Source of the DNA: an uncultured Verrucomicrobiales bacterium
GTDB taxonomy: Bacteria; Verrucomicrobiota; Verrucomicrobiia; Verrucomicrobiales; DEV007
Length of the DNA stretch: 35,265 bases
Assembly: GCA_913058215.1 (NCBI GenBank)
Contig: CAJXQE010000029.1
Span: 1-35,265 of the forward strand
Direction: 5' to 3'
Of the stretch, positions 7,048 to 19,993 are shown in pieces (positions within the stretch are counted from its first letter, which is position 1; each line of letters starts with the position of its first letter). The notes beneath the pieces are model-generated. The model worked only from the letters and a program-made list of their open reading frames with translations, was not told the origin of the DNA and made no database searches. The position numbers and the translations under genes were made by a program.

Positions 7048-7088
7048 TGCTTAGAATTTAAAAGTTGGAAGTGAACGGTGAAACGATC

Positions 7089-8789
7089 TCAGGCTGCAGA
7101 CTTCTTGTTTTTGCTGATAAAGCCGATCAGTCCGAGGATGAATAGAAGGATAATAAAACCGATTCCGATTTTCCCTACAGGAAGGCCCCAGGCTTCTTTG
7201 CTCTTCAATGCCCAGACCGTGCCGAAAGTAGCGGCACCAGTGGCAACCAGCATAGCGACGTTCCAGGCGATACGTTTGCCTCCAGTCGGCATGGCATCTC
7301 CGAGGAGCCGTTTCGAATTCATGAGAAGCAGAAAGGTGAAGTAAGCGATCGGAAGAAGCGAACTGCCGATCACCGAAGTTGGAATCGCGAGGGCGGCTTT
7401 GGATTCACCGGTCCAGACAAGAGGGAAACAGATTCCGAGGAGCCCCGGAATGAGACTTCCGAGGAAGTGCAGCTTCTTGTCATCGGGCCGTCCCATTGCC
7501 TCGCAGAGACAGAAGCCATTGATCAGCATGAGAATAATAATTGTTGAAATCGCCATCCCCAGAACACCGACACCAAAGACGATTTTCCCGAATCCTTCAC
7601 CGGCAAGAGCGGAAAGGGATTTCGCAAGATCGCTGTCCTTCCTGTCGACCTGCATTGCTGCGATTCTTCTGTTTTCAATGGAGAGGCCATTGCGGAGTTC
7701 TTCGACTTTGGCGGTCTGAGCGTCCCCTTCGAGCCCGTCCAACTCGGCGGTGTAATATTTACTTACAAATTTGTCGGCAACGGAATTGAAGCTGCCTTCT
7801 TTTCCGGCAATCACGGAGCCATCCGGGTTGATGATATCTTCCGATTTGCCGTGAAACTGACTTGCCGCAGCGATGACGATACAGCTGGTAGCCACGATAA
7901 AAGGAATGATCAATCCGGTGGAAAGATCGAAAGTCGCCAGTCCGCGATGCTCTTTTCCCCACCCTTTGCGAAGCATCGAATACGGGAGGAGAAAGGTCAT
8001 GTTAATACCGACAGCGGTTCCGAAAGCGGCAATGATTTTGTCGGTCTGAACTTTCGAGATCAGCTCGGTCCATATAGGTGCGGCGTCTCCGGTCGCAGAT
8101 ATGGCCGCGGCGACATCAGGTGCCGGCTGGTTGAGGTAGGCAAAATTAGGAATGAAGCCTTTGAAGATTTTTCCCCACTCGAGAGTGCCGGCGAAAGTCA
8201 GTTTTGCGACGACGATGAAGAAAGAAACCACCACGATTCCGACCATGATTTTAAGGATAGTCTCAAAGAGTTTTACCCCCTTGGAATTGCTGTCGTAGGC
8301 TTTCACGATCGTGGCCCCGATTGCCAGCAGCACGACACCGATGGCCCAGGGGGCCCAGGATTTCCCTTCAAATATTCCCGGCAGTAAATTCTGCTGAATC
8401 GCTCCGGTTCCGAGAGCAAACTGAGGAAGACACCAGACGATATTGGCCATCATTGCCGCGATGAGCCAGGCCCAGCCGAGCACCGGGCTGACGTATTCTT
8501 TAATTGCGCCGAAAGGTCGTTTTCCGCTCGAAAGAGTCACATAGGCAATGGCGCTCAGCATGATTACTCCCAAAATCATTGCGAGCGGCTGAAGCCACAT
8601 CAGATTGTATTCGAGAATCACACCGAGAAACAAGGCGCTGGCGAGAGAGCCCCCTCCGAGGGTAATTGCGGCCTGAAGCCAGCCGGGGCCGGACTTCTTC
8701 GAGTAATAGCCGAGGCGCTTGGCGAATGGCTTTTTATTTACTTCTGCCAATTCGGCGGTTTCTTCGGCGTTGGGTGTAGGATCACTCAT
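7089..8789 (-). CDS. Nramp-like (APC-fold) transporter lacking the canonical metal-binding motifs
   Basis: This 566-residue membrane protein has about 11 hydrophobic segments. The start GPGWLQAA (34-41) aligns with the conserved TM1 entry of Nramp proteins. Where typical Nramps have DPGN, it reads LGGGS (44-48). Where TM6 should carry MPH, it reads LLPYS (267-271). The residues that coordinate manganese or iron in classical Nramps are therefore absent. A large hydrophilic insertion at about 313-396 lies between TM segments. I recall related proteins, annotated as divalent metal transporters, in planctomycetes and verrucomicrobia. Given the missing ligands and the downstream sugar-type enzymes, another substrate is plausible. 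A promoter sits just upstream. Confidence 0.85.
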   Translation of the reverse strand: MSDPTPNAEETAELAEVNKKPFAKRLGYYSKKSGPGWLQAAITLGGGSLASALFLGVILEYNLMWLQPLAMILGVIMLSAIAYVTLSSGKRPFGAIKEYVSPVLGWAWLIAAMMANIVWCLPQFALGTGAIQQNLLPGIFEGKSWAPWAIGVVLLAIGATIVKAYDSNSKGVKLFETILKIMVGIVVVSFFIVVAKLTFAGTLEWGKIFKGFIPNFAYLNQPAPDVAAAISATGDAAPIWTELISKVQTDKIIAAFGTAVGINMTFLLPYSMLRKGWGKEHRGLATFDLSTGLIIPFIVATSCIVIAAASQFHGKSEDIINPDGSVIAGKEGSFNSVADKFVSKYYTAELDGLEGDAQTAKVEELRNGLSIENRRIAAMQVDRKDSDLAKSLSALAGEGFGKIVFGVGVLGMAISTIIILMLINGFCLCEAMGRPDDKKLHFLGSLIPGLLGICFPLVWTGESKAALAIPTSVIGSSLLPIAYFTFLLLMNSKRLLGDAMPTGGKRIAWNVAMLVATGAATFGTVWALKSKEAWGLPVGKIGIGFIILLFILGLIGFISKNKKSAA

Positions 8790-8840
8790 AGTTCGATCAA
8801 AAATGGATAGCGGTTGGTTCCTTTCTTAAAGGGACACGCG

Positions 8841-8868
8841 ATTCTAGCGGATGGCCCCGTCGCGTCAA
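8841..8868 (-). promoter_or_regulatory. Sigma70-type promoter for the Nramp-like operon
   Basis: Read on the - strand, TTGACG (8868-8863) is followed after 16 bp by TAGAAT (8846-8841). Each box matches five of six consensus bases. The predicted transcription start would be near 8834, leaving a leader of about 45 nt before the ATG at 8789. Position and orientation suit the four-gene operon 8789-4131 and suggest it is transcribed separately from the VOC gene upstream. Confidence 0.65.
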
Positions 8869-8900
8869 GGTCCGCTTGCGACTTCATAGGGCGACCGGAT

Positions 8901-9284
8901 TTATTGTTTCAACTCTTCCGGCACGAAGCAGAACTCCACGACATGTTCGTCGGGATCTTCGATGAAAATCTGGCGGGCTCCATCGGGCCGGAGATTCACA
9001 TTGACGATCTTTGCACCAGCTCTTTCGAGATGCTCCTGACATCCTTCAAAATCACCGATCTCAATGGCAAAGTGATTCCCCCTGGGATGTTCATGAACGG
9101 GAGTGTTGAGCCCCTCCAGCAAATGGAGTTCCCGAGTGTCACCGAGCGCAAACCAGGCACCGTCAAAATCGAAGGCGGGGCGTGGTTTCTGTTTCAGGCA
9201 AACGACTTCTTCATAAAATCGAATACTGCGCGGGACATCGCTGACACCAAGCGCGACATGATTGAGATCGAGAATTTTGATCAT
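8901..9284 (-). CDS. VOC (glyoxalase/bleomycin-resistance fold) protein
   Basis: This 127-residue single-domain protein is close to the usual length for one VOC module pair. The metal-site positions appear conserved: H9 in LDLNHVAL, a histidine in RELHLLEG, H71 in GNHFAIE and the glutamate in HVVEFCF near the C terminus. This pattern fits a dioxygenase, lyase or isomerase acting on small molecules, but the substrate cannot be told. It lies 86 bp downstream of the response regulator on the same strand and 111 bp before the Nramp-like gene, which has its own promoter, so it may be the tail of the regulatory operon or a single gene. Confidence 0.88.
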   Translation of the reverse strand: MIKILDLNHVALGVSDVPRSIRFYEEVVCLKQKPRPAFDFDGAWFALGDTRELHLLEGLNTPVHEHPRGNHFAIEIGDFEGCQEHLERAGAKIVNVNLRPDGARQIFIEDPDEHVVEFCFVPEELKQ

Positions 9285-9370: not shown

Positions 9371-10060
9371 TCAGGGGATGCGATACCCAATTCCTCTCAC
9401 TGTCTCGATTAATTCCGGGTTGGAAGGGTCAACTTCGATTCGTTTCCGCAGCCGGACGATATGTTGATCGAGTGTTCGGGACTCGGGGAAATAATCCAGC
9501 CCCCAGCACTCATCGAAGATTCTGTCGCGATGAACAGCGTCTCCCGTGTGCTGGTGCAGAAGGCTCAAAATGGCAACCTCGCGGGGCGACAGGTCAATTT
9601 TGTCACCGGTCGATTCCCGGACGGCGCGAAGCTGAGCCGGATACACCGTAAGTTGATCACGGATTGCAAAACTATCGGGTCTTTCCGGATTCGCTGCGAG
9701 ATCTGCTCTACGGAGTGCGGATCGAATCCGCGCGATGAGTTCGTGTTTCCCGAAGGGTTTGCGGATGAAATCGTCGGCACCGAGTTCGAGGCCCACTACG
9801 ATATCGATCTCTTCGTTTTTTGCGGAGAGAAAAAGAATCGGAAGCGACTGGTTCAATGCCCGGATATGACGGCACACCTCGAAGCCATCCATTTGCGGCA
9901 TCATGATGTCGAGGCAGACGAGGTCGGGCTTCTCGCGTTCCCAGAGGGTGACCGCCTCCTTTCCATTCCGGGCCAGGACGGTGGTGAAACCTTCATCAAG
10001 AAGGCACTCCTCGATGGTGTCGAGAGAAACAGGGTCGTCTTCGGCGATGAGTATCTTCAT
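9371..10060 (-). CDS. OmpR/PhoB-family response regulator
   Basis: The protein has 229 residues from the ATG at 10060 (MKILIAEDD). An upstream in-frame start at 10084 lies inside the kinase gene and adds residues foreign to receiver domains; AGGA ahead of 10060 supports the inner start. The receiver domain has acidic D8-D9, phospho-acceptor D51 (CLDIMMP), S79 and K101 (RKPF). The C-terminal half is a winged-helix DNA-binding domain ending in ESRTLDQHIVRLRKRIE and GIGYRIP. It starts 4 bp after the kinase stop, a typical translationally coupled pair. It is the natural candidate to bind the TTTACA direct repeat upstream of the operon. Confidence 0.95.
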   Translation of the reverse strand: MKILIAEDDPVSLDTIEECLLDEGFTTVLARNGKEAVTLWEREKPDLVCLDIMMPQMDGFEVCRHIRALNQSLPILFLSAKNEEIDIVVGLELGADDFIRKPFGKHELIARIRSALRRADLAANPERPDSFAIRDQLTVYPAQLRAVRESTGDKIDLSPREVAILSLLHQHTGDAVHRDRIFDECWGLDYFPESRTLDQHIVRLRKRIEVDPSNPELIETVRGIGYRIP

Positions 10061-10064
10061 TCGT

Positions 10065-11681
10065 TCATCCTGCCATTTCCACAATGTTGTCTGCTGCCCG
10101 CGGTAGAGTCAGGACAAAGCGGGCTCCCTGATCGGTCCTTTTCCCGGGAGAATCGAGTTCGAGTGTTCCGTCCAGGCTTTCGGTGAGATCCCGGGCGATA
10201 GCAAGGCCAAGTCCGGTGCCGGAAACACCATCGGATGTGGAGTCGCTGATTCTTACAAAAGGTCGAAATATTCGGGAGGCTTCTGACCTCGGAATGCCCG
10301 GTCCGAAATCGGTTACCGCGAGAGTGACATGGTTGCCGTCATTCGAAGATTCCGCGGAGATCTCGAACCGTTCTCCCTCAGCAGCGTATTTTTCCACGTT
10401 GGAAACTAAATTGCCGAGGACCTGGGAGAAAGCGTCGGGGTCGGCGAGAATAGACAGGGGAGGGTCCGGCATTTTCCGAATAACCTCGATTCCTTTTCGC
10501 TCCAGGGTTGTTGCAAAATGAGAAAGGACCTCGTCGACCAGCGGTTCGAGCGGACAGGGTTGAATTCTCAAGTCCTGTCCAACATTGCCTTCGTCGGTTC
10601 TAATTTTCTCACGCCTCGAAAACGACAACACATTCTCAAGGAGTCGGCTGAGCCTGTTTGCTTCTTCGCGAATCAGACCGAGTCGTTTTGTTCGTTTTTT
10701 TGGATTCCCGTCTCCATATGCCGGGTCGGAGAGAAGGTCGACGTTGAGGAGAATATTCAACATCGGTGTGCGCAGTTCGTGCGAGACGCGATTGACGAAA
10801 GACACTCTTTGCTCTGCGAGTCGCAGAGCCCGGTTTTGTTGGGCGAAACCAAAAAGCCCGGCGAGAACCAAAATGATGGCGAGGACCGAGGACCCAATCA
10901 TGATGGGATAGCGATAGGTGGTGACAATCTTTGTTTGCATCGGCGATGACACTTTCCACGTTCCAAAAACCGAGGAAATCGGCAGATGAAAATCCAGTCG
11001 ATCACCGGGTTCGGAGCCAACAGTGGAAGCAATGATCCTGCCGCGTGGATTCTCGAGGACGGCGGGAACTCCGGCAGTCTCCACCGTGGAGAAATGTTTG
11101 GGAACCCACTCCTCAAGCCACGAGTCTGCAGCCTTCGCCGCCAGAGTCGGGTTAATCCGCAGAAGCAGGTAGGAATCAAAATCAATCTTGGTGAGAAAAT
11201 GAGGCGGATGTCCGGGCGGCTTTTGCCATTGAAAAGGGACGCTCCGGTCGCTGCGCTCGAATCGCTCGATATCGACGAGCAAACCTTCGCCGGAGACGGT
11301 TTCATTGATCCGTCGGGGAAGTGGCAAGGGGATTGAACGGTCTGTTTCCCGAAGGTCGACATGTATTGGTGGTTTTCGCACGGGAAAGACCGTGGCCTGT
11401 TCGATCCCTACCATTTCCCGGCATGCAGCCGCGATCGCGATTTCCGAAGCGTCAATACCTATCCGGTTTCGAGTTTCGAGGAGTCTATCCTGATAGAGGA
11501 CTTCGAGCGACTCGATCTCCTTGAGTAGTTGGGTAGCGAATTTCACCAGAGGAGCGCGGTCCTGCTCGACCACTACTTCGTTCCTTTCTTTGGCGAAATG
11601 GAATCCCAGAAAGAGAACCGCCAGCGCTGATAGAAGAATCAACGCTAGAATCCAGACAGGGGTTTGTCGGAGAGACGGCAT
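10065..11681 (-). CDS. Membrane sensor histidine kinase
   Basis: This 538-residue protein has a first membrane helix at about 9-27, a periplasmic sensing region of roughly 225 residues (about 30-256) and a second helix at about 259-280. The cytoplasmic kinase core shows the H-box VSHELRTP with H301, the N-box NLVSNVEKY (424-432), the G1 box DFGPGI (458-463) and the G2 box GTGLGLAIA (488-496). There is no obvious HAMP or PAS domain between TM2 and the H-box. The sensing domain is not one I recognise. It is cotranscribed with two secreted secretin-like proteins upstream (23 bp gap), which could share its periplasmic environment and affect its signal. Confidence 0.94.
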   Translation of the reverse strand: MPSLRQTPVWILALILLSALAVLFLGFHFAKERNEVVVEQDRAPLVKFATQLLKEIESLEVLYQDRLLETRNRIGIDASEIAIAAACREMVGIEQATVFPVRKPPIHVDLRETDRSIPLPLPRRINETVSGEGLLVDIERFERSDRSVPFQWQKPPGHPPHFLTKIDFDSYLLLRINPTLAAKAADSWLEEWVPKHFSTVETAGVPAVLENPRGRIIASTVGSEPGDRLDFHLPISSVFGTWKVSSPMQTKIVTTYRYPIMIGSSVLAIILVLAGLFGFAQQNRALRLAEQRVSFVNRVSHELRTPMLNILLNVDLLSDPAYGDGNPKKRTKRLGLIREEANRLSRLLENVLSFSRREKIRTDEGNVGQDLRIQPCPLEPLVDEVLSHFATTLERKGIEVIRKMPDPPLSILADPDAFSQVLGNLVSNVEKYAAEGERFEISAESSNDGNHVTLAVTDFGPGIPRSEASRIFRPFVRISDSTSDGVSGTGLGLAIARDLTESLDGTLELDSPGKRTDQGARFVLTLPRAADNIVEMAG

Positions 11682-11704
11682 TCGCTTTCAAACTAACACC
11701 TGGC

Positions 11705-12511
11705 TTACTCGAAAGAAATCAAATCTGCCCGGATAAAAATGAGTACCCGTTTTTTCGGATCATCGTGGGGAGTGTGGATAGCAAGCAGATTGTAACTGCC
11801 GTCAGCCACTTCGATCTGATGCGTCTCTCTCCAGGTGTAAAAGATGGGCATAGAAATGTGATCCACCCCTCTCGCGGTATGTTCGCGCCCTTCACGGAAC
11901 ACATAGTTTTCGCCGAGATACTTCACGATTTCCGGAGCTAGATTTAGATTAATATGTGTTTGGTCTGCTCCAATGACCGGGTCCACTTCCAGAGTGATTC
12001 CAACATTTCGAGTTTCAAATGCGGCAGGGTTTCCGTGGGTCATATGGATGGTCGGGTCCCCTTTTTTCAGCGGAACTGCTCTGCCAATATTTCCGATCAG
12101 ATTTGGAATTTCAGGTGGATCATATTCGGTAGGGTAGATCTTTTCGAGTACCGATAATGTTTTCGCTCTCTGTCCCGAGCGGGAACGCACCCATGCTGTT
12201 TCCAACAGTTCCGCATCTCCTCTGTCGATCATCCCGTCGAGTTGTTTCCGTGTGTCCCCGGCATCGGTAGCTTTTGTTCCGATCTTGCGTAGCAGTTCAT
12301 TGGCGGTCGTGTGGCTGAGAGAGATGTATTCGATGAGAATACCCACTCCGGGCTGGATATCCTTGAGCTGGTCATTGGACTCTTCCGTTTTGCTGAAGAC
12401 ATTTTCTTTCTTTACTTTTTTATCGTCGGCTTTCGGCTTTTCTTGTGCCGAAACACTTCCGACGAGAGTTAGAGCGATGAGGATTGGAAATAAAGTTCTG
12501 ATTGGATTCAT
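11705..12511 (-). CDS. Secreted secretin-C-domain-like protein (paralogue 2)
   Basis: This 268-residue protein has a signal peptide ending near SVSAQ (residues 18-23). After a charged linker, the core follows the strand order of the secretin C-terminal domain. GDAELLETAW (98-107) matches the strand that in secretins reads like G.A.ILS.P. FETRNVGITLEVDPVIG (165-181) matches the VG..L.V.P.I segment. HQIEVADGSYNLLAIHTP (231-248) corresponds to the T.V.V.DGQT...GGL strand, and KKRVLIFIRADLI (254-266) to the LLIFLTP.I end. It lacks N0/N1 domains, so it is not a complete secretin. It is a clear paralogue of the gene 42 bp upstream. Whether it forms a ring or pore is unknown. Confidence 0.75.
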   Translation of the reverse strand: MNPIRTLFPILIALTLVGSVSAQEKPKADDKKVKKENVFSKTEESNDQLKDIQPGVGILIEYISLSHTTANELLRKIGTKATDAGDTRKQLDGMIDRGDAELLETAWVRSRSGQRAKTLSVLEKIYPTEYDPPEIPNLIGNIGRAVPLKKGDPTIHMTHGNPAAFETRNVGITLEVDPVIGADQTHINLNLAPEIVKYLGENYVFREGREHTARGVDHISMPIFYTWRETHQIEVADGSYNLLAIHTPHDDPKKRVLIFIRADLISFE

Positions 12512-12553
12512 AGGTTGATGAAATGGTAAAATTTGATGGTTGAAACAATTCGC

Positions 12554-13402
12554 TTACTTCGTTTTGGCGAGGATGAGTTCAGTAGTGACCAGGCAGAGAA
12601 TTCTCCGGTCGGGATCTTGATAGGGAGTATGGAACCCAACGAGGTTGGACCTTCCGGGAATGCAGGTGAACTGGATCGTGTTGGTCATCGTATAGAAATT
12701 AGGCATGCTTATATGGTCGATTCCATGGGCGGTATCTTCTGAATCGGGACGGGTGAAATAGCGGTCGTCAATTCGTTCGGTTCGTTCAATCGCAGCGTTC
12801 ACCTCGAGTGAGTGGCGGTTTTCAGAAATGACGACGTCCGCCTCGATGGTCAGGCCAAGGTGTCGTGTTTCGAAGGCGCTGGGGTTTGCTGATGTGATAT
12901 GAATAGCGGGGCCATCGGGGGAACCGGCATTCGGTGGCAGTGGAGCAGCGACAGCCTTCCCCTTTTTCTTATCGCCCGCAGCTTGGTCGGATAGGTTTCC
13001 TCCGACGGTATTGGGAATCTCGGCCGGATCGTACTCCGTTGCGTAGATATGCTCGTGAATCGATTCCAATTTTACGCGGTTCCCGGAGAGGCCGCGGAGC
13101 CAGCCGGTTTCGACGAGTTCGGCATCCCCCTGTTTTACTTTTGCATCGAGAATATTCCGAAGCTCCCCGGCATCGGCGGCGCGTGGCGCGAACTGGCTGA
13201 CCAGCTTGTTGGCAGAGCGGTGGTCGAGTTCGAAAAATTCGACCAACAAACTGAATTGCGGCATGCTCTCCGACTTGACCTCTTTCCCTTCGAAGCCCGC
13301 AGCGGGTCGAGGAGAATCTTTTTTCTCCTGAGCGGAGACAGGCGCATTGTAAAATAATGCAGCGGCGAGTAGCGGTATTAGTAGGCGTGATTCTAATCTC
13401 AT
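12554..13402 (-). CDS. Secreted secretin-C-domain-like protein (paralogue 1)
   Basis: This 282-residue protein has a signal peptide ending near PVSAQ (residues 21-25). It shares the whole core with the next gene: QGDAELVETGW (91-101), IYATEYDPAEIPN (119-131), FETRHLGLTIEADVVI (178-192), HGIDHISMPNFYT (226-238), a hydrophobic strand before FHTP (257-260) and DPDRRILCLVTTELIL (263-278). These match successive strands of the secretin domain but without N-terminal secretin modules. A Lys/Ala/Pro-rich insert (about 138-162) distinguishes it from the paralogue. It is the first gene of the operon and carries the direct-repeat operator candidate in its 74-bp upstream gap. The function is unknown; a periplasmic or outer-membrane sensor partner for the kinase is one inference. 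Confidence 0.75.
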   Translation of the reverse strand: MRLESRLLIPLLAAALFYNAPVSAQEKKDSPRPAAGFEGKEVKSESMPQFSLLVEFFELDHRSANKLVSQFAPRAADAGELRNILDAKVKQGDAELVETGWLRGLSGNRVKLESIHEHIYATEYDPAEIPNTVGGNLSDQAAGDKKKGKAVAAPLPPNAGSPDGPAIHITSANPSAFETRHLGLTIEADVVISENRHSLEVNAAIERTERIDDRYFTRPDSEDTAHGIDHISMPNFYTMTNTIQFTCIPGRSNLVGFHTPYQDPDRRILCLVTTELILAKTK

Positions 13403-13444
13403 GAATTCACCCTAAGCGCCCGCTGGCAGAATGAGTGACATCCC

Positions 13445-13472
13445 TGCAACATCTCTGTAAAATTCGTGTAAA
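13445..13472 (-). promoter_or_regulatory. Direct-repeat operator candidate (TTTACA-N5-TTTACA) for an OmpR/PhoB-family regulator
   Basis: On the - strand two perfect TTTACA copies (13472-13467 and 13461-13456) are separated by 5 bp, giving an 11-bp period. A third, degenerate copy GTTGCA (13450-13445) keeps the same spacing. OmpR/PhoB-family regulators bind head-to-tail hexamers with about one helical turn between them; Bacillus PhoP boxes have nearly this sequence. The site lies between the sulfatase stop and the first secretin-like gene, whose operon encodes such a regulator, so autoregulation is likely. No convincing -10 box was found. Confidence 0.6.
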
Positions 13473-13476
13473 AAGA

Positions 13477-14865
13477 TCAATCCGCAGCCTTCCAGAAATT
13501 CTCGAGGGACTCGTGAAGATTCTGCAGGATGTGTTTCAGCGTGGGGTCGCCGATACGATTAATCTTTTCCCCGGGGTCTTTGGCGATGTGATAAAGCGCG
13601 GGTCCGTCGAGGTAGTTATTCCACGGTTGTTTCCCAACAGGCTGGATGAGTTTGTATTCACCCTGCCGGACAAAGCGGTAGGCGAGGTCCTGCTTCGGGT
13701 TGTTGAGACTGGTGGAATCACCGGGATAAATCTCGCCGAAGACAGCACGATCAGGGTCGAGTCTTCCGAGCAGGTCGTCGCCGGGAAGTTCAGGTGATTC
13801 CGCTCCGACTGCTTTCAACAGCGACGGGACAATATCGATGCTGCTCACGAGCTCCTCGTGAGTCACCGGTTTGATCACTCCATCCCAGCGGATCAGAATC
13901 GGACTGCGGACACCTTCATCGAAAGGAGCGCGTTTGCTGGTTTTGGTATGAGCGAATTCCTGTGGGCGATTCTTCTCAGGCCTGGTGCCCGGACTCCATC
14001 CGTTGTCGGACACAAACACGAAGATTGTATTCGCCTCGGCCGCTGTTTTTTCGACGAAGGAAATGAGTTCGCCTACAGTGTCATCAAACTGGGCGATGGA
14101 GGCGAAGTAAGGAATTTCGTGAGCTTTCACGCCGGGCTTTGCTTTTGCGATTTCGTAAAACTTTTCAGGAGAGTCATGCGGCTGATGCGGGAGGTAGGGC
14201 GCATACCAGACCAACCAGGGCCCCCCGGATTTTTCGCAGCTGGTGATGAAGTCTTTGATCGGCCGCATTGTTTCCCTGCCAATCTGGAGACCCCAATCCC
14301 CGTTGCCGTGTGCAACGCGGTCTCCGCTTTTCAGTTTTCGGATTCCTCCGTAGGTTTGCTCTTCAGGAGGAGCGGTGAAGGTTGTCATTCCTTCGGTGAA
14401 TCCGCCATTCCGCCAATGCCCTTCCCAGAATTTTCCAGTTTGCAAAGAACGATAGTTTAACTGGTCACGAAGAATTTGAGGGAGGGTGGGGACTTTCTTG
14501 ATGAGCTCAAATTCGCGATTCCTGGTCTCTTCATATTCTGCCACCGAGCTCATCCGGTTGTACCCCGAATTTCCGGGAGGACCATGATTAAAATGCACCC
14601 CGTGTTGATGCGGATAGAGCCCCGTGAGCAGTGTTACCAGAGAAGGGCGGCAGACACTGGTGGGCAGGTAGCCGTTGGGAAATTGTGCAGACTGCGAAGC
14701 GAGTCGGTCAAGATTGGGTGTGTGGACGCGTTCATTTCCCATGAACCCGAAATCACTCCAGGTCTGATCGTCGGAAATGATGTAGACAATATTTGGCGGG
14801 CGTTCTGCGGAAAATGCCTTAGCGCAAAGGACGAGAACCAACACTCCCAGGCAAAACTTGATCAC
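13477..14865 (-). CDS. Sulfatase (alkaline-phosphatase superfamily) with atypical CRPSL active-site motif
   Basis: This 462-residue type I sulfatase starts at GTG 14865 and overlaps the upstream stop by 4 nt (GTGA). A signal peptide ends near AFSA (residues 17-20), so it is exported. Metal ligands appear in ISDDQ (D32, D33) and FVFVSDNGW. The formylglycine motif reads C72-R-P-S-L-V-T-L-L-T-G; in classical sulfatases it is CxPSR, so the arginine four residues after the cysteine is a leucine here. The codons at 14652-14638 confirm this. The PHQHGVHFN segment and overall length resemble heparan N-sulfatase-like or polysaccharide sulfatases. The substrate is probably a sulfated sugar, but the motif leaves maturation by formylglycine-generating enzyme open. 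It is the last gene of the operon. Confidence 0.9.
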   Translation of the reverse strand: MIKFCLGVLVLVLCAKAFSAERPPNIVYIISDDQTWSDFGFMGNERVHTPNLDRLASQSAQFPNGYLPTSVCRPSLVTLLTGLYPHQHGVHFNHGPPGNSGYNRMSSVAEYEETRNREFELIKKVPTLPQILRDQLNYRSLQTGKFWEGHWRNGGFTEGMTTFTAPPEEQTYGGIRKLKSGDRVAHGNGDWGLQIGRETMRPIKDFITSCEKSGGPWLVWYAPYLPHQPHDSPEKFYEIAKAKPGVKAHEIPYFASIAQFDDTVGELISFVEKTAAEANTIFVFVSDNGWSPGTRPEKNRPQEFAHTKTSKRAPFDEGVRSPILIRWDGVIKPVTHEELVSSIDIVPSLLKAVGAESPELPGDDLLGRLDPDRAVFGEIYPGDSTSLNNPKQDLAYRFVRQGEYKLIQPVGKQPWNNYLDGPALYHIAKDPGEKINRIGDPTLKHILQNLHESLENFWKAAD

Positions 14866-16355
14866 TTCGGAATTCTGTTGAGAGTGTAGTAGGCATTCGA
14901 ATGTTCCAGAGGAACGCCGTCTGCAGATTTGATTCCGGTGGTTTGCAATTCGAAGACATGCAATTCGCGCAAATTGTCGACTTGGAATTGAACCTTGAGG
15001 CCATCGTCTGAAACTGAGATCTTCGAGACCTTGTGTTTCTTTGTGTCCATTTCTTCGCCGCCATACTTCGACGAATACTCATAGGTGTAGCTGCTCAGGC
15101 TCAAGGCGGACTCACTGATAGTCTTCGCGTCGATTGCTTTGGTGAAGACGAGTTCGAATCCGTCCGGCTTTGCCCGCATTTCCTGAATTTCCAGCGGAGT
15201 GTCTCCCGTAAAGCTGACCCTCTCCAATCCATAGGATCGGTTCCCGAGCGATGACCAACCGCGATTGGTCATCCCGACCATGAGTGACCCGTCCGGGGAA
15301 AAACTCAAGCGAACTACGGCCGCAGGGAATCCGTCGAGGAAGGGAAAGCAGGCACCCTGATACTCGCCATTCACTTTCTCCAGAAACACGCGATTTACTG
15401 AGGAGTTGGTAAATTCTCCGATCAGCATTTGCCCATCGAAGGGACCGAATTTTCCATTTTCATCGATCACTTGAATGTCTGTCGCTGAGCGCCCCATTTT
15501 GTTGTAGGGGAGCCAAACTGCCGGAGCGGTAAATTCAGGAGAGCTTTTCACTGCATCCGGATAGGGTTGATTGGGCTCCGGTATTTTCGACATTTTGAAA
15601 GGAGCATCCGCTAACTCGAGACTCGGTAGCGATTCCTGATTTCCAAAAAATACACCGGGCCTCAGATGATAAATCGGCGTGGCCGGAATCCAGGTTCCCT
15701 GCTGGTCAGAGTAAAACATGTCGCCATCGCGATTCGCACCCATTCCGCTGGGGGATCGCATCCCGAGGGATTTGGGAACGAACTCACCGTCCTTGCCAAT
15801 GACGCCGCCCCAGCCTCGCCAGCCAATCTTGTTGTTGGCAAGATCACCCATTCCAAGATTCAAAGTGACCCAGAGATTACCCTGTCCATCTTTCTCGGGT
15901 CCGTAGGCATAAGCATGGTAATTCCCTGAGACATTCCAGCCATCGCATTCAGTGAGAAAGGCGTCGGCGAGACCGTCTCCATCATTGTCCTGAAGCCGCG
16001 TGATCTCCGACCTTTGCGAAACGAGAATGTCTTTCCCGTCGCGGTGAAGTCCAAGTGGCTCGTGGAGCCCGGAGGCGAAACGATTGAATTTGATTTTGTC
16101 CCGGTCATCCGACAGAGGGTTTTCGACCATCCAGACGTCGCCCTTACGGGTGCAGACGGCGAGCTTGTCGTCCATCCAGGCCATCCCGCTGACTTCAAGT
16201 GTGATGCCATCGCCCGGCTTCCATTCGGCAGAGCGGGAATGGCTCGTTTCACTGGCGGTGATCAACTCGAAGCGGCTGTAGGAACTCCCGGACTTGTCCT
16301 CTGCGAATACATAGGAAAAGAGGAGTGCTGAAGTGATGTAGATAATTTTTCTCAT
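14862..16355 (-). CDS. Secreted PQQ/sorbosone-dehydrogenase-like beta-propeller protein
   Basis: The protein has 497 residues from ATG 16355, which overlaps the upstream cytochrome stop by 4 nt (ATGA). A longer frame to 16454 is rejected because it lies inside the cytochrome gene and would bury the signal peptide (residues 1-18, ending near YVFAED). The body has propeller-type repeats (DDKLAVCTRKGDVWMVEN, GLHEPLGLHRDGKDILVSQ, RLQDNDGDGLADAF) typical of the membrane-bound-dehydrogenase or glucose/sorbosone dehydrogenase group of PVC bacteria. DNDGDG resembles a calcium-binding loop. The C-terminal third (about from 400) is an Ig-like region. Being next to a multiheme cytochrome suggests electron delivery from an oxidised sugar, though PQQ binding cannot be proved from sequence. 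Confidence 0.85.
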   Translation of the reverse strand: MRKIIYITSALLFSYVFAEDKSGSSYSRFELITASETSHSRSAEWKPGDGITLEVSGMAWMDDKLAVCTRKGDVWMVENPLSDDRDKIKFNRFASGLHEPLGLHRDGKDILVSQRSEITRLQDNDGDGLADAFLTECDGWNVSGNYHAYAYGPEKDGQGNLWVTLNLGMGDLANNKIGWRGWGGVIGKDGEFVPKSLGMRSPSGMGANRDGDMFYSDQQGTWIPATPIYHLRPGVFFGNQESLPSLELADAPFKMSKIPEPNQPYPDAVKSSPEFTAPAVWLPYNKMGRSATDIQVIDENGKFGPFDGQMLIGEFTNSSVNRVFLEKVNGEYQGACFPFLDGFPAAVVRLSFSPDGSLMVGMTNRGWSSLGNRSYGLERVSFTGDTPLEIQEMRAKPDGFELVFTKAIDAKTISESALSLSSYTYEYSSKYGGEEMDTKKHKVSKISVSDDGLKVQFQVDNLRELHVFELQTTGIKSADGVPLEHSNAYYTLNRIPK

Positions 16356-18466
16356 TTCCAGCTGTAGGTAAAAGTTACGGACGCCTGATCCTTTTTCTCT
16401 TCGATCGAGACTCCTTTCGGATGGGTCACTGTCGGAGCTTCGCCTGGCTTCCATGTCAGTGTTCTGATGAGGGTCTTCTCTGCCACACGAAAGCTGTCTT
16501 CAATATCCTGACCTTCTTTGCTGATCAGAAAAGTGGGATTTCCTTTCCCGTCGGTCTTGTATCCGCGGAATCTTCCGCTCTCTTCGCTGGAAGCTTCAAA
16601 CTCGTAGACGTCATCGCTCAAGGGATTCTCGAAAGGGGCGGAGCGGACAAACCAAGTGTTGTAGGCATCGAAAAACTTCCCGCGCCACACCAGGGCCGGC
16701 CGGCCTTTCGAGCCGTCGTATGCCAGATGAATCTCACCCGGGAAACCGACGAGGATGGCTTTGGTTCCCGTTTTCTCAAGGAAGGTTCGCTGAATGATAG
16801 GGCGAACAATAGGAGTCAATTCGAATTGGCCGGGCATATGGTCGGGGAATCCCTCTGGTTTGCCTTCTCCTTCTTTGATAAATCCCCAGATGGCTGCGAT
16901 CTGTCTTTCTGCATTGCCGTCCAGAACATCCGGGACCATGGATTTCCCCTGTGGCCAAAGAGGGGGCATTAATGTTCCCGGGCGATAGGATGCCGGGTTA
17001 AGCAGATACTCGCGAAACCAATGAGGACGAAGCCGCTGGTCGAGTGAACTGATGTCGAGGGCGGGAATCCCGAGCGATTTCTGTTCTCCCCAATTGTGGC
17101 AGGTGATGCAATTCACACCGCCCTGAATTCCGAGGAGTTTTTTACCCACCTCAATATCGTCAGGGCGGATTGTGATTGGTGGGGAATCCGTTTTCAGATC
17201 TTCTTTTACAAACCAGTCGGCGAGGACCTTGGCATGCTTCGCGTAGGCAGGCATGCTGGTTTTCATGTAGGGCCGAACCCGGTTTTTCGGCTTTCCGGTG
17301 AGCACACCCTCGAGCCATTCCGTCTGCAGTTTGTCGCCGATTCCAGTGAGAGGCGGAGGTAGCCGACCGGAATCTCCGAGGCTTTCCAGTCCGTGGAAGA
17401 AGGGGTTGGTATTGATGGTGGGGCCACCGATTCCGTTCCGGTCGTGGCAGGCGTAGCAATTCATTGCCGCGAGCGATAGATCCTCCCGGGATCCCGGCTC
17501 CTTTGGTTGATCATCCTTTAGAAATGCGACAAGAGCTGATCTTTGTGCCTCTGTTAGCTTGTAGCTTGGAATTCCGGCTGTGGGTGATGCAGAAAGACAA
17601 TGGCCAGCGTCCTTTTCGGGAGGAGCGGATAAGGAAATCAAAGTGTCAGCCTTTTTCCCGGGAATGGCGTGGCAGGCGATACAATTCAGTTTGGCGACGA
17701 GGCTTTTTCCCTTTTGGACGGATGGTTCGCCAGCTTTTGGCCAGGCCTTATGAGCGTCGGCTTCGCGGGGGTCACTCGCTTGAAAATCAAGAAGGTGGGC
17801 CGCAATGTCGAGCGACTCCTGTTTATCGAGGGCGATGTGAGGCATGCGTCCGTCAGTTCGATAGCGCGCCGGGTTTGATAGGAAATAGTCGAGAGCGGTC
17901 AGTGTTGTCTTCTTCTTCAGATCTGGATGAGAAATGGCGAGAGGTGAGGTGAGGCTTTCTCCACTTCCTGCGGGACCGCGGTAATCAGCCGTCGGGGCAT
18001 GACAGGCGACGCACCCTTTTTCGTGGTAGAGAGCACTTCCGTTTTCCGCGTTTGCGTGGCGCCCGGGCCTCAGTTTCAGGCCTTTGCCAAGTGTGCCAAG
18101 GTAGTTGGTGACCGACTCCACTTCTTCATCAGAAAGTCCGTGAGCCAGGTTCGGCATGGTGGATCCTTTCCGTCGTGATTCCGGATCTTTCAGGAATTCG
18201 ACGACCCAGTCGCGGGACACGCGGTCCGAGATGTCATTCAAGGAAGGTCCGGAACGTGGCACGGCGACATCGGAACCCCCGTGGCAATTTGCGCAGCCAA
18301 GTTCGGAGAAGAGAATGGCTCCCCCTGCTGCATTGGGGCTGTCGACATGGAAGCGTTCATACCCAACCACGTGAGGGGAGGCGTGTGAAATGTCCCGGGA
18401 CAAAAGGACGCCTATGAAAAGGAACGCAAATGCCCACGATTGAGCTCGAAAAATGGGGACACTCAT
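16352..18466 (-). CDS. Pentaheme c-type cytochrome, secreted
   Basis: This 704-residue protein has a signal peptide (about 1-30) and five CXXCH heme c sites: CANCH 58-62, CVACH 152-156, CIACH 262-266, CYACH 337-341 and CITCH 453-457. Methionines in GSTMPN, GRMPH, KTSMPAY and GTLMPP are likely distal ligands, as in mono-heme cytochrome c modules. The C-terminal part (about 540-704) has no heme motif and looks like a separate beta-rich domain. It probably carries electrons in the periplasm from the downstream dehydrogenase-like propeller. It overlaps both neighbours by 4 nt: the ATGA at 18466-18463 with the TIM-barrel gene and the ATGA at 16355-16352 with the propeller gene. Confidence 0.92.
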   Translation of the reverse strand: MSVPIFRAQSWAFAFLFIGVLLSRDISHASPHVVGYERFHVDSPNAAGGAILFSELGCANCHGGSDVAVPRSGPSLNDISDRVSRDWVVEFLKDPESRRKGSTMPNLAHGLSDEEVESVTNYLGTLGKGLKLRPGRHANAENGSALYHEKGCVACHAPTADYRGPAGSGESLTSPLAISHPDLKKKTTLTALDYFLSNPARYRTDGRMPHIALDKQESLDIAAHLLDFQASDPREADAHKAWPKAGEPSVQKGKSLVAKLNCIACHAIPGKKADTLISLSAPPEKDAGHCLSASPTAGIPSYKLTEAQRSALVAFLKDDQPKEPGSREDLSLAAMNCYACHDRNGIGGPTINTNPFFHGLESLGDSGRLPPPLTGIGDKLQTEWLEGVLTGKPKNRVRPYMKTSMPAYAKHAKVLADWFVKEDLKTDSPPITIRPDDIEVGKKLLGIQGGVNCITCHNWGEQKSLGIPALDISSLDQRLRPHWFREYLLNPASYRPGTLMPPLWPQGKSMVPDVLDGNAERQIAAIWGFIKEGEGKPEGFPDHMPGQFELTPIVRPIIQRTFLEKTGTKAILVGFPGEIHLAYDGSKGRPALVWRGKFFDAYNTWFVRSAPFENPLSDDVYEFEASSEESGRFRGYKTDGKGNPTFLISKEGQDIEDSFRVAEKTLIRTLTWKPGEAPTVTHPKGVSIEEKKDQASVTFTYSWK

Positions 18467-19377
18467 ATCTTCTTCAAGCAGTCACTGATGTATTCTCTTG
18501 AAGTATTGATCGCGGCAGTGATTTCACCGGCAGTGCCCAACATGGGAATGCCCCGGGGTACGGGATGACCAAAGATCTCGGCAAGTCCGTCGAACTTGAT
18601 GTCGCGGAGGGCTGCGAGGATGGGAACGTAGTCGAGAGACCCATGTCCGGGCAACTGTTTGAGCTGTTCCTGTTCGGACATTTTTTCTTTCGAGGATTTG
18701 TGATGCTCCTGAAAGTAGATGAACGGGATATTCTCTTTACCGCAGTCTTTGATGAGTGTGGGAATGTCATCGACGACGTCGTGAAGATGGTGCGGTGCAA
18801 AAGCGATGCCGATGTTCTTCGAGGGATTCAGTTCAGAGAAGTAGCGAATCGAGTCCGGGGACGACAGCATTGAGTTCTTGTGGTTCTCGATCACCATGGT
18901 GATGCCTTTCGATTCGGCCAGCTCGTAGTGAGGTTTCAATTTTTCGAAAAAGGCTTTCACCTGTTTCTTTGCCTCTTCGCCGACAGGGTCTCTTTTACCC
19001 ATGCCTCCTGAACCGCAGAGAGTCATTGTCCCTCCGTTTTTCTTTGCCCAGGATATCTCTTCATCCTGTTTGAAGGGGCCGAGCGGATAGCAGGTTGAGA
19101 TTGCCATTTTCGTGCCGCGCTTTTTCAAGAGCGTTTGAAAAGCTTCGTCTCCCATTTCCGTAATCTGCTCACGATGGGTGGCGTGTCCTTTTCTCCAAAT
19201 ATCCACTGACTCGCAGCCGGCCCTGGCGACTTCACCGAGAACAGTATCGAGCGGCATGTCCCCATACATTGCCGAGGACAAAACATAGCGAACGCTAAAG
19301 GCATCCTCTGCTTTTGAAATTGAAGGCACCGCAAGTGCTGCGGAACCTGATAACTGGCAAAAACGTCTACGATTCAT
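18463..19377 (-). CDS. Secreted sugar phosphate isomerase/epimerase-like TIM-barrel protein
   Basis: The protein has 304 residues from ATG 19377. An upstream frame extending to 19512 is rejected because it overlaps the DJ-1 gene and hides the signal. The N terminus MNRRRFCQLSGSAAL is a Tat-like twin-arginine signal. The barrel belongs to the xylose-isomerase-like (AP endonuclease 2) superfamily: IENHKN (E164, H166), APHHLHD (195-200), GHGSLDY (244-250) and EIFGHP (267-272) sit at positions expected for metal ligands. The reaction is unknown; relatives isomerise or epimerise sugars and inositols. It starts 34 bp after the DJ-1 gene and ends in a 4-nt overlap with the cytochrome. Confidence 0.9.
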   Translation of the reverse strand: MNRRRFCQLSGSAALAVPSISKAEDAFSVRYVLSSAMYGDMPLDTVLGEVARAGCESVDIWRKGHATHREQITEMGDEAFQTLLKKRGTKMAISTCYPLGPFKQDEEISWAKKNGGTMTLCGSGGMGKRDPVGEEAKKQVKAFFEKLKPHYELAESKGITMVIENHKNSMLSSPDSIRYFSELNPSKNIGIAFAPHHLHDVVDDIPTLIKDCGKENIPFIYFQEHHKSSKEKMSEQEQLKQLPGHGSLDYVPILAALRDIKFDGLAEIFGHPVPRGIPMLGTAGEITAAINTSREYISDCLKKI

Positions 19378-19411
19378 AGTATTAAAAAATTGAAATTGAT
19401 TGCTCTTGAAT

Positions 19412-19993
19412 TCAGGCGCTCTTCGCTGCTGCAGCTTCCTCCAGCATTTTGATCCACGGCCCAAGGTAGTGCCCGTTGTCGTGAAAAGTTCTTCCGGATA
19501 CGAGGTTCCCATCGATTACGCAGGGCTCGTTAACGTAGATTCCGCCACACACTTCGAGATCGAACTGACACTTTGCCACGGTCGCCATTTTGCGACCTTT
19601 GACCCGATCGGCCCGGGCCGGAATCTCAACGCCGTGACAGACGCTGGCGATGGGTTTGTCATTGTCGAAAAACCACTGCGTCATACTGATCAAATCAGGA
19701 TCTTCACGGATGTATTCCGGAGCGCGTCCGCCTGAAAAGAAAATGCCGAGATACTCATCCGGATTCACTTCGGAAAACGCCAGGTCGGCCTGCAGCTGAT
19801 AGCCTTCCCACTCCCGGGTGATGGTCCAACCGGGACGCACTTCGTGCATGACCATTTGATAGAGCCGTTTCTCCGGAGCAATCACCACGGGCTGAATGTT
19901 TGCTTCCTGCAAACGATAGAAAGGATAGAGGGTGTCGACGGTTTCGGTGGCGTCTCCGATTACGATCAATGCTTTTCCTATGAATTCTGACAT
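19412..19993 (-). CDS. DJ-1/PfpI family protein
   Basis: This 193-residue protein has the class I glutamine-amidotransferase-like fold. The nucleophile elbow SVCHGVE places the catalytic cysteine at C119 followed by H120. The conserved FSGGRAPEYIR (86-96) and the early acidic residue E17 complete the usual site. Members act as deglycases, chaperones, isocyanide hydratases or peptidases; sequence alone does not decide. No signal peptide is seen. It is the first gene of the operon running to 13477 and is divergent from the XylR-type regulator, so it would be the first product made on induction. Confidence 0.92.
   Translation of the reverse strand: MSEFIGKALIVIGDATETVDTLYPFYRLQEANIQPVVIAPEKRLYQMVMHEVRPGWTITREWEGYQLQADLAFSEVNPDEYLGIFFSGGRAPEYIREDPDLISMTQWFFDNDKPIASVCHGVEIPARADRVKGRKMATVAKCQFDLEVCGGIYVNEPCVIDGNLVSGRTFHDNGHYLGPWIKMLEEAAAAKSA

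Follow-up and report, generated by a model that had tools for sequence, protein, structure and literature searches.

Secretin cores without pore-forming parts as the constant genetic partner of a kinase family in Verrucomicrobiota

Introduction

Secretins are giant outer-membrane pores, and secreted proteins that hold little more than their core strands raise a defined question: what is the role of the secretin fold when it is not a pore? We address this question for an operon in a 35,265-nucleotide stretch of DNA (the whole of which is called the window here) from an uncultured Verrucomicrobiales bacterium (assembly GCA_913058215.1, contig CAJXQE010000029.1, positions 1 to 35,265), a member of a phylum for which we know of few sensory systems that have been characterised. 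Four genes on the reverse strand follow each other with intergenic gaps of 42, 23, and 4 bp and encode two secreted paralogues (P1 and P2), a histidine kinase, and an OmpR/PhoB-family response regulator, in this order (Table 1). A sequence-only reading of the window had described exactly this gene order, spacing, and position, had noted strands of the secretin C-terminal domain without N0/N1 modules in both paralogues, and had suggested a periplasmic or outer-membrane assembly that the coupled kinase senses or regulates. Our analysis reproduces the operon as described and finds that one kinase family is consistently encoded beside a secretin core that lacks the pore-forming parts.

Results and discussion

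P1 and P2 are related to the pilus secretin Amuc_1098

Sequence comparisons identify P1 and P2, which share 44% identity, as reduced secretin cores akin to Amuc_1098/PilQ, the type IV pilus secretin of Verrucomicrobia. Both proteins match the NCBIfam family Amuc_1098_fam (NF042912; 2.8e-29 for P2 and 2.1e-17 for P1), with P2 scoring 101.8 bits and thus below the curated threshold of 750. The Pfam family Secretin (PF00263) similarly matches P2 with 19.3 bits, below its cut-off of 27.5, but this cut-off is passed by some members of such gene modules (39.8 bits at locus L013 and 41.4 bits at L195), and 32 of 49 relatives match at E<=0.01. The genome also encodes a full-length Amuc_1098 secretin of 888 amino acids (989 bits) beside PilM/N/O-like genes (L011). 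In BLAST comparisons with this protein, P2 shows 43% identity over 152 amino acids (E 2e-28) and P1 31% identity over 161 amino acids (E 4e-16), while a profile of the P1/P2 family aligns to it at 99.9% in hhalign (E 2.8e-32). The core strands of the family are RSGQRAK..E.IYPTEYDPPEIPN, FETRNvGiTLEVDPV, LNLAPE, and MP.F...TTQ..DG. Against PDB sequences, the secretin profile gave one weak match, to the secretin RcpA (E 0.066).

P1 and P2 are like Amuc_1098 and other PF00263 secretins in these strands and in the fold predicted for a fused relative (see below), but have only one third of their length and lack the TPR, the N-domains, and the signature of the amphipathic helix lip (AHL). Alignment with the genome's own full-length secretins reveals no N-domain (N0/N1/N3) in either protein and shows that around 80 residues behind the first of the core strands are missing. 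Furthermore, P1, P2, and the other reduced relatives in the alignment have no counterpart of the stretch GGLIRE..DKVPFMGDLPVIGRLFR (GGLIRE..LGDLPVIGRLF), which holds the AHL in secretins. The AHL functions in the outer-membrane insertion of secretins (PMC7545093), and Akkermansia PilQ (Amuc_1098) is an abundant outer-membrane protein (PMC4960237). A type-I-like signal peptide opens each of the two proteins (..APVSA before QEKK in P1 and ..GSVSA before QEKP in P2). Unlike the Amuc_1098 secretin, they have no pilus gene neighbours and instead adjoin a two-component system with which, judging from the spacing, they are probably co-transcribed.

A relative in which two cores are fused in one chain (L131; 444 amino acids) was modelled with a predicted local distance difference test score (pLDDT) of 88.6 and a predicted template modelling score (pTM) of 0.84. 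The best 28 structural matches of this model are all secretins, including pIV of phage f1 (Z 10.3; 2.7 A over 128 residues), GspD (Z 10.1), and V. cholerae PilQ (Z 9.6), and Foldseek concurs. A secretin fold of the P1/P2 family is therefore supported by prediction for the fused relative, while the assignment of P1 and P2 themselves is based on sequence.

The matches to pIV and GspD could also speak for a multimeric outer-membrane ring as suggested by the sequence-only reading. However, neither P1 nor P2 has the N-domains, the segment behind the first strand, or the stretch with the lip needed for membrane insertion, and the fusions in their relatives hold exactly two cores, which suggests a dimer rather than a large ring. 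We found no support for such a ring and consider it very improbable. The other elements of the earlier interpretation have held up: the secretin kinship is real by NF042912, BLAST, and hhalign, with a secretin fold and no other predicted for the fused relative, the absence of N0/N1 modules is borne out by alignment, and the coupling to kinase and regulator extends far beyond the window, as shown next.

The secretin-core gene accompanies the kinase across one order

We searched 289 relatives for the sensor part of the kinase and found matches in 62 genomes. Nearly all of these loci were annotated (with a few of the weakest matches left out), and an unrelated kinase (L122, 1059-4181) and five kinases at contig ends were left out of the module count. 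A secretin-core gene lies directly upstream of the kinase gene in 65 of the 66 testable cases, two of which were read by hand because of over-called or broken open reading frames. A further kinase outside the order, in a different family of the phylum (G414, locus L195), has the same arrangement, giving a total of 66 of 67. Wherever the contig allows, the regulator gene lies directly downstream of the kinase gene, and the spacing between secretin and kinase genes is often -4 or -1 nt. Many relatives encode a two-core fusion protein in place of P1 and P2. As judged from a tree, G052 and G038 have orthologues of both in the same operon order, and the same is true of G006 and G023 for P2. The window's genome has two sensor matches, each behind secretin-core genes, the second being a module (C502) whose two-core protein gene overlaps the kinase gene by 4 bp. 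Gene order, which the sequence-only reading could see only once, is therefore conserved over several families of one Verrucomicrobiota order plus once outside and comes with a common promoter box. The named matches of a narrow sensor set come from six Verrucomicrobiales/Verrucomicrobia metagenome-assembled genomes, and a phylum-wide search with at most six candidates scored per genome found the sensor in at least 10 of 388 genomes. With 64 of 153 inner branches open, the secretin-core tree gives little resolution in its deep part, and we make no claim on the number of origins of this coupling.

The same search with P2 as query gave matches in 245 of the 289 relatives when full-length secretins are counted in. 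Since core genes greatly outnumber the kinase (245 versus 62 genomes, with this inclusion), the dependence seems to run from the kinase to the secretin gene and not in reverse.

The sole exception among the 67 kinases (L123) is preceded by a protein of 368 amino acids (L123:5012-6118, reverse strand) that has a secretin N-domain but no core; its C-terminal part corresponds to positions 251-353 of NF042912 (E 9.2e-23). With this N-domain, a single kinase family would receive its input from two distinct parts of one machine. It speaks for a reading in which pieces of the pilus secretin, mostly the core and once an N-domain, are periplasmic subunit mimics that dock homotypically onto or into the Amuc_1098/PilQ ring and inform a dedicated Cache kinase of how this ring is assembled. 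The descent of P1 and P2 from a secretin type that the genome also encodes in full fits this proposal. Conversely, the promoter box was not recognised at pilus genes among the matches read, the core-only proteins have diverged to 20-45% identity, and genomes of group g19 (putatively Akkermansia-like) have the secretin but no match to the sensor. Taken together, we regard such mimicry as rather unlikely.

A promoter box of direct repeats precedes the modules

Before the first secretin gene, the window carries the box TTTTACA-CGAA-TTTTACA-GAGA-TGTTGCA-GGGA-TGTCACT, located inside the 74-bp gap between P1 and the end of a sulfatase gene. The form shared by the modules is TTTTRCA-N4-TTTTRCA...TTTGACGCA, i.e., direct repeats at an 11-bp period in which TTTTACA-N4-TTTTACA is followed by two weaker repeats at the same period, the last being TTTGACGCA; the consensus of the four-repeat box is tTTTtACAgAAcTTTTACA.a....tcA....g.tTTGaCgCaa. 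TTTTRCA-N4-TTTTRCA with at most one mismatch is present in 39 of 61 modules, compared to 0.04 expected from Markov-simulated sequences of the same composition. Module L195, which lies outside the order, and module L123 with its N-domain protein carry the box as well. The exact sequence TTTTACA-N4-TTTTACA has a single site in the 7.67-Mb genome, at positions 13456-13473 of the window just upstream of P1, and allowing one mismatch yields eight sites including the second module at C502. Across 40 relatives, we found 25 box sites versus 2 for a reversed control pattern; about half of them lie at modules, and eight of the 25 have no clear common target.

An 11-bp spacing of direct repeats is typical of PhoB/OmpR-type regulators. 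Autoregulated systems of the PhoB/PhoP type resemble the module in their OmpR/PhoB regulator and in an 11-bp direct-repeat box beside a -35-like TTGAC element, but the target here is a secretin-core operon, and there are no phosphate genes at the box sites examined. Phosphate regulation was rejected because the exact box of the window's genome lies at the secretin operon and not at pst/pho genes.

Some boxes lie apart from kinase modules. On contig C205 of the same genome as the window (L217, about 716-2960), a near-perfect four-repeat box precedes a DUF4838 gene. Its 5' leader looks like the beginning of a secretin-core gene, and the promoter may have been taken over from a module that has since been lost. 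G006 and G023, which belong to the genus of the window, have an exact box before the same small secreted protein gene (L174 and L176, around 1000-1520), and in G158 and G122, which belong to one genus, a box lies around 57 bp before a MoxR ATPase gene (L163 and L165, around 450-1520). These DUF4838, small secreted protein, and MoxR genes are possible second targets of the regulon.

A predicted dCache-like sensor and its possible periplasmic partner

The two-component pair is complete and encoded by adjacent genes, with HisKA and HATPase_c domains in the kinase and receiver and Trans_reg_C domains in the regulator. The periplasmic sensor domain has no Pfam family at E<=0.01, including no Cache family, and no real match among PDB sequences, so its fold was predicted instead (pLDDT 93.3). 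Structures of the dCache/tandem-PDC type dominate the top matches of this model at Z 7-9.4 (8w7p, Z 9.4; KinD 4jgp, Z 8.3; dCache diguanylate cyclase 7k5n, Z 8.2; LuxQ 2hj9, Z 7.2). We call the sensor dCache-like as a prediction because these values are moderate. A role as a defence system was rejected, as the secretin proteins have no PADLOC match and the kinase matches via its catalytic region only.

Building on the homology, the conserved gene order, the fusions, and the conserved box that the genome comparisons reveal, we lean, if only slightly, to a three-component system under autoregulation, with periplasmic proteins of secretin origin providing input to a Cache kinase. P1 and P2 would be exported to the periplasm and, because two cores are fused in one chain in many relatives, probably work as a pair there. 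Having presumably lost any secretion-pore function, this pair may act on the dCache-like domain by supplying or modulating its signal, with the pilus secretin, surface glycans, or envelope state as candidate cues. The phosphorylated regulator would then bind the box and activate its own operon. Two steps of this scheme are inferred, namely autoregulation and the effect of the paired secretin cores on the kinase.

Accessory proteins of this kind have precedents. LuxQ senses via the periplasmic protein LuxP (PMC8534201), and the operon resembles this pair in combining a kinase sensor predicted to be dCache-like with a co-encoded exported partner. However, LuxP is a periplasmic protein of the sugar-binding type while P1 and P2 are secretin cores that putatively act on their kinase, and LuxQ differs in being a hybrid kinase that passes its signal into a phosphorelay. 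The kinase QseE is activated by QseG, an envelope accessory protein that is likewise encoded with kinase and regulator (QseG-QseE-QseF; PMC12691602) but is an unrelated outer-membrane lipoprotein, whereas P1 and P2 carry type I signal peptides. A literature search of incomplete coverage found neither a description of a system like this one nor a known accessory-protein kinase with a secretin fold. As far as searched, a secretin-core two-component system is thus undescribed, although accessory-protein systems as a kind are already known.

Several observations weigh against the three-component scheme. Operon adjacency and autoregulation would be equally expected if P1 and P2 were what the system puts out, the loci examined yielded no secretin core fused to a kinase, and Z-scores of 7-9 are moderate for the sensor. 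Binding of the box by the regulator is suggested by the geometry of the direct repeats only, and the third and fourth repeats of the window box are degenerate. The serious rival is an output model in which the dCache kinase detects a small ligand by itself and P1 and P2, switched on by the regulator, carry out a task in the envelope, e.g., as a small outer-membrane assembly or in the binding of a surface polymer. As general knowledge, dCache domains usually bind their ligands directly. With the box placed before the secretin genes and nearly absent elsewhere in the window's genome, P1 and P2 could well be the main target of the regulator. Solo secretin-core proteins without a kinase, paired with other envelope proteins, are also common, suggesting that the family has roles outside signalling, and the model of the fused relative shows weak whole-chain similarity to the small barrels CymA and FadL (Z about 5). 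Yet an output gene should stand apart from the kinase in some of the 67 loci, which it never does, and the same promoter is explained by an autoregulated accessory-sensor arrangement. We therefore judge the output model to be unlikely on balance, though clearly less so than pilus-secretin mimicry. That no kinase of the family lacks a secretin piece at the loci examined, while cores often occur without the kinase, fits better to a partner-dependent kinase than to a mere regulator of P1 and P2 and is what tips us towards the three-component system. The module, with a promoter at hand for use as a reporter and well-defined genes to delete, could provide a handle on signalling in Verrucomicrobiota.

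Gene neighbourhood and related secretin-core genes

The positions of all features of the operon are listed in Table 1. Upstream of P1, the same strand of the window carries sulfatase, DUF7133-like, cytochrome c, and TIM-barrel genes (13477-19512, reverse strand).

Table 1. Features of the secretin-core operon (positions in the window).
Feature	Position	Strand	Basis
P1, secreted secretin-core protein, 282 amino acids, signal peptide, without N-domains	12554..13402	-	Open reading frame; NCBIfam; BLAST; orthologues
P1 residues 106-209, match to Amuc_1098 secretin core (profile 601-691)	12776..13087	-	
P2, secreted secretin-core protein, 268 amino acids, paralogue of P1	11705..12511	-	Open reading frame; NCBIfam; sub-threshold Pfam Secretin; BLAST
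P2 residues 99-239, match to Amuc_1098 secretin core (profile 588-743)	11795..12217	-	
Histidine kinase, 538 amino acids: transmembrane segment, periplasmic sensor, transmembrane segment, HisKA, HATPase_c	10065..11681	-	Open reading frame; domain matches
Periplasmic sensor domain of the kinase, residues about 31-256, predicted dCache/tandem-PDC fold	10914..11591	-	Model; structural matches
OmpR/PhoB-family response regulator, 229 amino acids, ATG at 10060	9371..10060	-	Open reading frame; domain matches
Promoter box, tandem 7-mers with 11-bp period	13434..13473	-	Sequence reading and genome pattern search

Secretin-core genes without a kinase are found in several other contexts. At three loci (L146:5005-9177, L147:5189-9189, and L148:4798-8816), a solo secretin-core gene is followed directly, often with a 4-bp overlap, by the gene of a VIT-domain protein of 1067-1076 amino acids, and those of L146 and L147 lie behind vWA/DUF58-type genes resembling a Bat-like cluster. 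Elsewhere (L149:4882-6773, L154:3694-5603 and 7062-8985), the solo secretin-core gene precedes the gene of a secreted protein of 354-366 amino acids, for which the one example scanned gave no Pfam match; these pairs suggest a reusable theme of secretin-core partners. The window's genome additionally encodes three tandem secretin-core proteins of 339-396 amino acids without a kinase, which have kept one secretin N-domain (L009:5843-9134). Finally, one secretin-core relative (L010:1812-2732, reverse strand) has a lipoprotein-like signal (LSAC), in contrast to the kinase-linked members, whose signals are of type I.

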